NCBI RefSeq assembly: GCF_000203915.1
Contig: NC_008391.1
Span: forward strand, 806,001 to 870,000
DNA from: Burkholderia ambifaria AMMD
GTDB lineage: Bacteria; Pseudomonadota; Gammaproteobacteria; Burkholderiales; Burkholderiaceae
DNA: 64,000 bases
Reading direction: 5' to 3'
Part shown: one piece after another, positions 34,572-36,005 of the stretch
How positions within the stretch are numbered: position 1 is the first letter of the stretch
Layout of the letters: every line of letters starts with the position of its first letter
The notes under the pieces: model-generated
Told to the model about the DNA's origin: nothing
Seen by the model: only the letters and a program-made list of their open reading frames with translations
Databases searched by the model: none
Program-made: the position numbers and the translations under genes

Positions 34572-35783
34572 TCACGCATCCTGTTCGCGTGCGTCGAAGA
34601 TGCGGATGCACCCGGCCGCCGCCAACGCGATTGCCGCGGACAGCAACATCACGACCAAAGGCGCATAACCTGCGTTGCGCACGGTCAGCACCGCGCCCGT
34701 CAGCGACGACAGCGCGGCGCCGCCCGCGATCGTCATCGCCCCGACCAGCCCCGATGCGCTACCGGCCAGGTCCGGCCGCACCGACATCGCGCCGGCATGC
34801 GCACCGGGATTCGACAGCCCGTTGCCGACGCCGATCAGCACGCACGGCCCGAACCATGCGATCGCATGCGTCGCACCGCCAAACAACAGCGCGAGCGCGA
34901 TCACCGGCCCCATGCATGCGACCACGCGTGCGCACAGGATCGTCGCGGCGAGCGGATAGCGGTGCGCGTGACGCGCGGCCAGAAAGCTGCCGCACACGAA
35001 GCCGGCCGTGATCGTCCCCATGTACAAACCGATTTCCGCCGGCGGGATGCCGAACTTCGCTTGCGCGGCGAGCGGCGCGCCGGCCAGGAACGCGTAGAAC
35101 GCGCCGGTCGAAAAGGCCATGCAAAGCGCATACGCCCAGAAGCGGCGCGCACGCAGCAGCGCCGGATACGCGCGAAGCTGATGCGCAAGCGTGGTGGCGC
35201 GCTTCGTATGGGTTTCCGCGAGATCGAACCCGCACCAGCCGAGCAGCGCGATACCGGCCGCGCCGAGCAGCCAGAAACTCGATCGCCAGCCGACCGTCTG
35301 ATCGAGCGCGCCGCCGAGCGTCGGGCCGATCATCGGCGCGAACGCGGCCGCCATCGCCGCATAGCCGATGCGGCTCGCCGCGCGTTCGCCGCCGGCGGTG
35401 TCACGCAGCGTCGCCATCGACACCGGATAGACCGACGTGATCGCCGCCTGCATCAGCCGGCACGCAAGGAACATGCGGATATCGGTCGCCATCGCGCAGC
35501 CCAGCGACCCGAGCGTGAAGACGCCGAGGCTCGCCAGCATGATCGGCCGTCGCCCGAACCGGTCCGACAACGGCCCCATCACGAACTCGAGCGACGCGGC
35601 AACCGCCGCGTATCCGCCGAGCGCCAGCGCGACGAGCCCGTAGTCGGCGTGCAGGTCGCGCGCGATCGCGGGCAACGACGGCAGCAACATGCTCAACGGC
35701 AGCACGGAAAACGCGCACAACAGGATCAGCGTCGCGTGTCGGGGCGACGCCGGTTCGGAAGCAATCGGCAGGTTCGGTTGCAA
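34572..35783 (-). CDS. Bcr/CflA-family MFS drug efflux transporter, TTG start
   Basis: A 403-residue, 12-helix MFS protein of the Bcr/CflA drug:H+ antiporter group. The first periplasmic boundary reads LLPSLPAIARDLHADYGLVA, and the loop 2-3 motif is GPLSDRFGRRPIMLASLG. The start is TTG at 35783, because GAGGAGGG sits 7 bases upstream; an upstream in-frame ATG would lie inside the attenuator and has no ribosome site. Forty-five bases before the TTG is an intrinsic terminator, and before that a 16-codon leader peptide with its own promoter. Expression is therefore probably induced by a translation-stalling compound, likely a substrate of the pump. Confidence 0.9.
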   Translation of the reverse strand: MQPNLPIASEPASPRHATLILLCAFSVLPLSMLLPSLPAIARDLHADYGLVALALGGYAAVAASLEFVMGPLSDRFGRRPIMLASLGVFTLGSLGCAMATDIRMFLACRLMQAAITSVYPVSMATLRDTAGGERAASRIGYAAMAAAFAPMIGPTLGGALDQTVGWRSSFWLLGAAGIALLGWCGFDLAETHTKRATTLAHQLRAYPALLRARRFWAYALCMAFSTGAFYAFLAGAPLAAQAKFGIPPAEIGLYMGTITAGFVCGSFLAARHAHRYPLAATILCARVVACMGPVIALALLFGGATHAIAWFGPCVLIGVGNGLSNPGAHAGAMSVRPDLAGSASGLVGAMTIAGGAALSSLTGAVLTVRNAGYAPLVVMLLSAAIALAAAGCIRIFDAREQDA

Positions 35784-35827
35784 GCGGATACCCTCCTCGC
35801 ACGCGCCGCGGGGGCCGTGCGCGATGC

Positions 35828-35853
35828 AAAAAAACCCCCGAGCAAGTCGGGGG
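35828..35853 (-). terminator. Attenuator terminator upstream of the MFS efflux gene
   Basis: On the minus strand CCCCCGA-CTTGC-TCGGGGG is followed by seven T. This textbook intrinsic terminator lies between the leader peptide and the efflux gene. The segment GGCGCA inside the leader's arginine codons can pair with TGCGCC, which includes the first C residues of the terminator arm, offering a possible competing structure. Confidence 0.88.
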
Positions 35854-35877
35854 CGCATGGGTGCCGGCGCGGTGCCG

Positions 35878-35928
35878 CTACCGGCCCCTGCGCCTGCGTA
35901 CTACCACGTTGAAGTTTGCCGCTTTCAT
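35878..35928 (-). CDS. Leader peptide MKAANFNVVVRRRRGR (attenuator)
   Basis: A 16-residue frame reads MKAANFNVVVRRRRGR. It is preceded by CAGGAG nine bases upstream of the ATG and ends at TAG, 25 bases before the terminator stem. The Val-Val-Val-Arg-Arg-Arg-Arg segment contains Arg-x-Arg, the type of motif at which macrolide-bound ribosomes stall in erm leaders. A ribosome held there would cover the RNA before the terminator and could favour readthrough into the efflux gene. Translation is supported by the ribosome site and layout but not proven. Confidence 0.75.
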   Translation of the reverse strand: MKAANFNVVVRRRRGR

Positions 35929-35975
35929 GCCGGATGGCTCCTGAACGCCCGAATCCCGGGCAGCGATGTCGGACG

Positions 35976-36005
35976 ATGGTAGGCCCACGCCCGCGCTCCC
36001 GTCAA
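35976..36005 (-). promoter_or_regulatory. Sigma-70 promoter of the efflux attenuator
   Basis: The minus strand carries TTGACG (36005-36000), an 18-base spacer and TACCAT (35981-35976). The start would be near 35969, about 40 bases before the leader-peptide ATG. It lies directly after the htrA stop codon, so leader and efflux gene form their own transcript. Confidence 0.65.

Follow-up and report, generated by a model that had tools for sequence, protein, structure and literature searches.

The gene for a Bcr/CflA-type transporter in Burkholderia ambifaria AMMD is preceded by a short leader that encodes a peptide and ends in a terminator. Which signal does this leader report to the gene? We addressed this question for a stretch of 64,000 nucleotides of contig NC_008391.1 (the window), which belongs to a genome of 7.5 Mb in four contigs. 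An earlier note on the window had proposed that the leader senses drugs: macrolide-bound ribosomes would stall at an Arg-x-Arg motif, described in the note as an established stalling site in erm leaders, and thereby permit readthrough into an efflux gene. Comparison across genomes suggests another signal: the leader is probably a branched-chain amino-acid attenuator, responding mainly to valine, of an MFS transporter gene. This reading is built on sequence evidence, namely a conserved ORF, conserved valines, Arg codons kept at the RNA level and two hairpins, and in addition on a likeness to acetolactate-synthase leaders and a lasting link to one MFS clade.

Leader architecture and distribution in Burkholderia

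The promoter, ribosome site, 16-residue peptide, terminator, GAGGAGGG stretch and TTG start that the earlier note had described were all found where it had placed them. The features of the region are as follows.

35976..36005, minus strand: sigma-70-like promoter TTGACG-N18-TACCAT, beginning right behind the htrA stop codon (TTGACG at 36005-36000, an 18-nt spacer and TACCAT at 35981-35976, read in the sequence)
35938..35943, minus strand: ribosome-binding site CAGGAG of the leader ORF, mostly kept in alignment A1 of the leaders
35878..35928 including the stop, minus strand: leader ORF MKAANFNVVVRRRRGR, 16 codons, ATG at 35928, stop TAG at 35880-35878
35899..35907, minus strand: candidate control codons Val8-Val9-Val10 (codon statistics)
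35881..35894, minus strand: 5' arm of hairpin P1, within leader codons 12-16 (alignment and pairing)
35852..35867, minus strand: 3' arm of hairpin P1, the final 3 bases of which double as terminator base
35834..35854, minus strand: intrinsic terminator hairpin T, CCCCCGA-CTTGC-TCGGGGG
35828..35834, minus strand: seven-T run of the terminator
35791..35798, minus strand: ribosome-binding site GAGGAGGG of the transporter gene
34572..35783, minus strand: Bcr/CflA-type MFS transporter, TTG start at 35783, 403 aa

P1 encloses the leader stop codon. The earlier note was right that GGCGCA, within the Arg codons, pairs with TGCGCC, at the base of the terminator: an RNA arm lies inside the Arg codons, and the pairing forms the base of this longer conserved hairpin. 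Within the window sequence alone, the parts of the leader are near chance. A span of 4 kb held one promoter-like site (0.3 expected) and two terminator-like sites (2.3 expected), and the 128-nt leader folded barely better than its shuffles (z -0.89). It is the comparison between genomes that decides. A loose promoter pattern was present in 37/37 Burkholderia leaders (pattern search, no control set).

The expectation that the leader would recur upstream of orthologous efflux genes was borne out. Among 65 Burkholderia genomes, 37 carry the leader and 39 the orthologous MFS gene (E <=1e-120); both occur together in 35 and neither in 24. Foreign DNA separates leader and MFS gene in three of the 35 (G061, G033, G047). 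The exceptions are few. G051 has a leader with an altered terminator and no MFS gene was found there, and G054 keeps a leader with unaltered terminator before an internally deleted MFS gene. Conversely, the MFS gene stands without leader in G011 and G060, where foreign sequence reaches the terminator site, and in G032, where one deletion removed the leader together with the MFS start; in G023 the leader is eroded, its promoter still being discernible by eye. Since L057, L059 and L060 keep the leader before the MFS gene with no htrA match within the stretch, the leader goes with the MFS gene and not with htrA.

We sampled 299 genomes of the family. The leader model matched 24 of them (E 0.01, strict filters) and the MFS protein 27 (E 1e-95), each confined to one of the 25 genera sampled, which is the window's own. 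Two named Paraburkholderia also carry the pair. As the pair is otherwise rare in the family outside Burkholderia, horizontal transfer into Burkholderia/Paraburkholderia is possible. The window genome itself has a single match to the leader model. Putative second copies in Burkholderia, a 28-nt match at query positions 105-132 that recurs in many genomes, were taken as chance and rejected; this match was located in four of ten fetched regions, which share one conserved neighbourhood that is not leader-like.

As a separate observation, foreign DNA was seen at the terminator in five Burkholderia genomes: L053 (G061), L054 (G033), L091 (G060), L090 (G011) and L058/L122 (G047). The insertions in G061, G060 and G011 have right ends that look alike, and the left end of the one in G033 resembles them when judged by eye. 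G047 has a group II intron at this point (RF00029, 41.8 bits on L122). The insertion in G033 measures about 9 kb and, according to PADLOC, holds at L054:5031-10531 a Gabija pair (GajA 1058.8 and GajB 919 bits) and a candidate defence gene, PDC-S15 (272.5 bits). The terminator seems to be a recurrent insertion target.

Codon conservation and a proposed attenuation mechanism

We analysed codon statistics for the 32 of 37 leaders that share the 16-codon register, counting a site seen twice once. The remaining five leaders have 17 or 19 codons, that is, their length differs by whole codons. Val8 and Val9 are invariant (32/32) and are written with four and three synonymous codons, respectively, which makes Val8-Val9 the strictest amino-acid-level conservation outside the hairpin. 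Val10 follows in 24 of the 32 leaders, and codon 7 is Ile in 27 (Asn7 in the window). Upstream, Ala or Thr occupies both codon 3 and codon 4 in all 32 leaders, with variable third bases; codon 4 is Ala in 30, with four Ala codons used, and codon 5 is free.

At the other end of the ORF, codon 13 is CGC in all 32 leaders, codon 16 is CGG in 31 and codon 14 is AGG in 28, the other four encoding Met, Lys or Gly. Most leaders have Arg at codons 12-14, three in a row. Codon 12 shows three synonymous AGG-to-CGG changes, all at the first base, which lies outside the P1 arm. Because the Arg codons barely change synonymously while the Arg of codon 14 is replaced, it is the RNA pairing that is kept here and not the amino acid.

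The pairing itself was followed through 36 leaders. The 22 pairs of both hairpins (17 + 5) were formed in 97.9% of 792 cells, versus 38-56% when the hairpins were slid as a control. Covariation, which had been suggested as a check of the hairpin, did not appear within Burkholderia, where the 36 leaders show no double change. In the wider family, an ungapped helix of at least 9 bp was present near the expected place in 25 of 33 leaders, with compensatory versions in L179, L188, L190, L192 and L185. The other eight, including the window, have no such helix; the ungapped helix of the window measures 6 bp, and 185 of 300 shuffles were equally good. A MAFFT alignment of 29 divergent leaders misplaces the 3' arm and was excluded from these counts.

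The locus thus has several marks of a branched-chain attenuator: a putative leader ORF, control codons conserved as amino acids and an intrinsic terminator before the gene. In the mechanism that we propose, plentiful charged Val-tRNA (and Ile-tRNA) would let the ribosome pass Ile7-Val8-Val9-Val10 (Asn7 in the window). Once past the Val codons it would cover the P1 5' arm, the terminator would form and the transporter would not be made. If Val or Ile were short, the ribosome would wait at codons 7-10, the downstream RNA would fold otherwise and the polymerase would read through.

We modelled these states by folding 35 Burkholderia leaders with the ribosome as a mask (3 of 38 entries were dropped by hand, one duplicate and two decayed). 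The mean pair probability of the terminator base was 0.34 without ribosome; it rose to about 0.79 when the P-site lay at codons 3-8 and to 0.95-0.96 when it lay at codons 9-16. The window gave 0.12 without ribosome, about 0.46 at codons 3-8 and 0.9-1.0 from codon 9. The border in folding lies at the Val codons: a ribosome awaiting Val8 or Val9 leaves P1 free, and beyond them it does not. P1 and the terminator base compete over 3 nt in Burkholderia, which gives a weak shift in an equilibrium folding that is itself crude. Small as the shift is, these predictions fit a simple attenuator made of two hairpins, in which P1 acts as antiterminator.

In 24 leaders from outside the class (L151 left out), P1 and terminator do not overlap, and the terminator is predicted to form mostly whatever the ribosome position. 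When an antiterminator was sought by folding, L159 and L146 lost the terminator with the ribosome at codon 11; L154, L171 and L172 lost it without ribosome, and L150 stayed at about 0.63 throughout. The antitermination step may therefore differ between Burkholderia and alphaproteobacterial leaders. An aptamer reading of P1 was considered and dropped because the inner loops are not common to the groups and the ORF is conserved.

Related leaders and the history of the transporter

Scanning one genome per species across 84,980 species for the MFS protein yielded 39 loci. An RNA model of the Burkholderia leaders detected the leader upstream of Paraburkholderia MFS genes (91.7 and 98.7 bits) and at the same site in a Kiloniellaceae bacterium (51.5 bits), with weak matches in Rhizobiales and others (<=25 bits). 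Homologous leaders stand before orthologous MFS genes in Paraburkholderia and Alphaproteobacteria, and there 14 of 17 scanned score as the Rfam family RF02502, 'Atu_C8 sRNA'. Among 20 scanned MFS loci (17 outside the genus, three Burkholderia), eight carry RF02502 above cut-off at this position and two a TPP riboswitch. The window scores 26.2 bits, under the gathering cut-off of 50. Its relation to RF02502 is a distant likeness and not membership; the two are collinear and alike in working. Eight further loci gave one listed match at E <=0.1 (L143, 28.6 bits). In 199 sampled genomes of the Rhizobium-like family, the MFS protein was found in 64 (E 1e-70), mostly at less than 42% identity. The nine closest (>=43%) have RF02502 (four), a TPP riboswitch (one), neither (two) or a leader seen by eye (L207, L211).

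What else does RF02502 precede? We surveyed 398 genomes of the window's phylum; the genomes with hits discussed here lie outside its class and are taken as alphaproteobacterial. RF02502 matched 32 of the 398 at E 1e-3, 18 above cut-off with 22 hits, and of these hits 18 lie directly before an acetolactate synthase gene and four before the MFS gene. The 18 loci returned comprise 16 with acetolactate synthase and two with MFS downstream (conserved N-terminus or tblastn); the second copies, L194-L197, add two of each (tblastn). One acetolactate synthase was confirmed as TIGR00118 (L199, at the place of L167). In G429, G572 and G591 one RF02502 copy stands ahead of each of the two genes. This placement suggests that RF02502 is a branched-chain amino-acid attenuator serving two different genes. 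Below the cut-off, 12 of 14 hits were read: seven precede acetolactate synthase and five neither gene, the latter probably being chance. G365 (L166, L194) has two copies, each before an acetolactate synthase gene. By eye, no such leader precedes the closest acetolactate synthase gene of the window genome (56% identity to the query).

In a cross-match, the Burkholderia-only leader model found the acetolactate-synthase leader L189 (E 4e-7), with weaker matches to L178 (0.0016) and L173 (0.014). Peptides of such leaders include MKIATVLIVVGKRMGRMV and MKKALILVGRRVGKAV. Ile, Leu and Val make up 57% of in-frame codons 4-10 in the 37 Burkholderia MFS leaders, 59% in 21 other MFS leaders and 63% in 17 acetolactate-synthase leaders (from 23 loci read, six being dropped because the start was unclear or the peptide had already been counted), versus 2-19% in the other two frames of all three groups. 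Val-Val occurs in 34/37, 18/21 and 7/17 leaders of these groups and Leu in 7/37, 12/21 and 17/17, respectively; that is, MFS leaders are Val-richer and Leu-poorer than acetolactate-synthase leaders. Two of the 37 Burkholderia leaders, L055 and L056, have just one Ile and one Val before the Arg run.

We built a tree of 61 MFS proteins, 27 of them assigned to no group. The window transporter falls inside a 40-row clade (100/100), of which 31 rows have the attenuator, three a TPP riboswitch and six neither, some of these labels being assigned by eye. Of the 21 rows outside the clade, 11 were scanned against Rfam and showed neither element above cut-off. The three TPP-riboswitch proteins cluster (99/93) as sister to Burkholderia plus Paraburkholderia. 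At the three Mesorhizobium-like loci L145, L158 and L208, the riboswitch (RF00059, 74-75 bits) lies directly upstream of the orthologous MFS gene. It takes the very place of the leader, replacing the attenuator, but is a ligand-binding aptamer without leader ORF. With a midpoint root and a program warning on long branches, this distribution is most simply explained by an attenuator that was ancestral to the clade, as it probably was, and a riboswitch that replaced it. In four Comamonadaceae loci (L153, L155, L157, L162), the 300 nt before the MFS gene share a motif that contains CTCCTGTTG and is followed by a CCCG.CA.GAG-like stretch; no leader ORF or terminator was seen by eye in this region, and here the transporter may be under another kind of regulator.

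The best family match of the window protein is TIGR00710 (Bcr/CflA) with 189.1 bits, under the curated cut-off of 200.9; its orthologues L145 and L154 score 220.5 and 183.2 bits. CmlA/FloR comes second, far under cut-off, and the nearest solved structures by sequence are MdfA and EmrD (multidrug resistance protein D). Its regulation suggests that the pump may serve metabolism rather than, or besides, drug resistance. Both control by Val/Ile shortage and TPP control in a sister lineage speak for a metabolite as substrate. Because these two unrelated regulators share one site in orthologues, they provide a concrete lead to that substrate. Acetolactate synthase needs TPP. Tentatively, and as a possibility that we do not call likely, the 'drug efflux' MFS clade would transport a metabolite where valine and thiamine metabolism meet, with an ancestral branched-chain attenuator that gave way to a TPP riboswitch in one Mesorhizobium-like lineage; Atu_C8 would then be the terminated attenuator product of two unrelated genes and not trans-acting at heart. 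Under the attenuator reading, a transporter clade annotated as drug efflux moves into the branched-chain amino-acid regulon, and a function is proposed for RF02502, which Rfam files merely as a small RNA. Induction by starvation is, however, odd for an exporter and counts against this reading.

Alternative readings and known systems

The leader could instead report a general failure of translation: a drug that stops ribosomes within the first 7-8 codons would leave P1 free, and the pump would be made. Chloramphenicol is one such drug, and its stalling follows a context rule (Ala/Thr). The Ala or Thr at positions 3 and 4 of all 32 leaders (Ala/Thr3-Ala4) would suit it, as would the second-best match of the protein to CmlA/FloR, distant as it is, and folding favours P1 over the terminator base without a ribosome and somewhat so when none is past codon 8. 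Yet several MFS leaders outside the genus have lost Ala/Thr at 3-4 (MNVE, MSVD, MSVE, MTVG), for which reason we dropped the chloramphenicol context as main reading, and neither Val8-Val9 nor the acetolactate-synthase leaders are explained. We consider a general translation sensor rather improbable.

A second alternative takes the element as a free-standing gene for a trans-acting small RNA or small protein, as the label 'Rhizobiales sRNA' of Atu_C8 implies, with an incidental neighbour. Its own promoter and terminator would yield a short transcript, and PMC10117765 ascribes a dual function as sRNA to rnTrpL of Sinorhizobium, which derives from an attenuator. But a neighbour that is acetolactate synthase or MFS in 22/22 hits above cut-off in the phylum survey hardly looks incidental, and of the two leaders whose MFS gene is gone or cut, G051 has an altered terminator and G054 has not. 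An exclusively trans-acting role is improbable, but the element may have a trans role in addition to attenuation.

The macrolide model fares worse. An Arg-Leu-Arg motif occurs in resistance leaders (PMC8632094), most leaders offer three consecutive Arg codons, and the gene belongs to an efflux-type family. However, the Arg codons in the hairpin arm vary in amino acid (4/32 at codon 14) and hardly synonymously. In our folding, moreover, a ribosome on these codons covers the P1 arm and the terminator stays formed, and homologues outside the genus serve acetolactate synthase. Folding, codon statistics and these relatives together make the macrolide model highly improbable. What stands of the earlier note is a leader-peptide attenuator before a Bcr/CflA-type gene, with an RNA arm inside the Arg codons; drug sensing finds no support in the present analyses. 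Finally, a mere htrA terminator with a chance ORF would agree with the near-chance counts of promoters and terminators in 4 kb and with the position of the leader directly after htrA in the window, but is refuted by the comparison, in which leaders precede MFS genes without upstream htrA (L057, L059, L060) and show in-frame indels and amino-acid-level conservation.

For the branched-chain attenuator, we found no paper on the leader element or on Atu_C8 attenuation in the open-licence literature, judged by titles and the starts of abstracts, with subscription papers outside its scope. Attenuators of proteobacteria were reportedly surveyed by Vitreschak in 2004. The acetolactate-synthase side may partly be known already from that survey and from work on Caulobacter.

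RF02502 is among the closest known systems. Start codon, Val-rich ORF, P1 and terminator follow in the same order in both, the P1 5' arm starts near ORF nt 35 and P1 encloses the stop codon, and the same orthologous MFS gene lies downstream in several Rhizobiales. The Burkholderia version differs in that its predicted folds show no inner three-way junction, 3 nt are shared between P1 and the terminator, and the score stays below the cut-off (26.2 versus 50 bits). Furthermore, the Burkholderia ORF is led by a Shine-Dalgarno sequence, unlike the Rhizobiales ORFs (for example L154 and L165), which by eye start about 7 nt past the -10 box; the Rhizobiales leader is therefore probably a leaderless mRNA.

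The ilvGMEDA, ilvBN and leu leaders of E. coli have a short ORF with branched-chain codons and a terminator, as here. The likeness noted here is one of design, and we found no segment 2:3 antiterminator in the present leader. All three are named as attenuators in PMC1183508. In Caulobacter crescentus, the ilvBN genes have an attenuator (Tarleton, Malakooti and Ely 1994). As described in PMC4117421, which cites that work, it has a leader with Ile and Val codons, a rho-independent terminator and pausing on uncharged tRNA, but its target is acetolactate synthase and no transporter. In Agrobacterium, a 2013 survey moved three previously listed sRNAs to the 5' UTR leaders (PMC3738593). The trpL/rnTrpL of Sinorhizobium is, according to PMC10117765, a leaderless leader ORF in Rhizobiales and an attenuator recorded as small RNA, which differs from the present leader in being a Trp attenuator of trpE.
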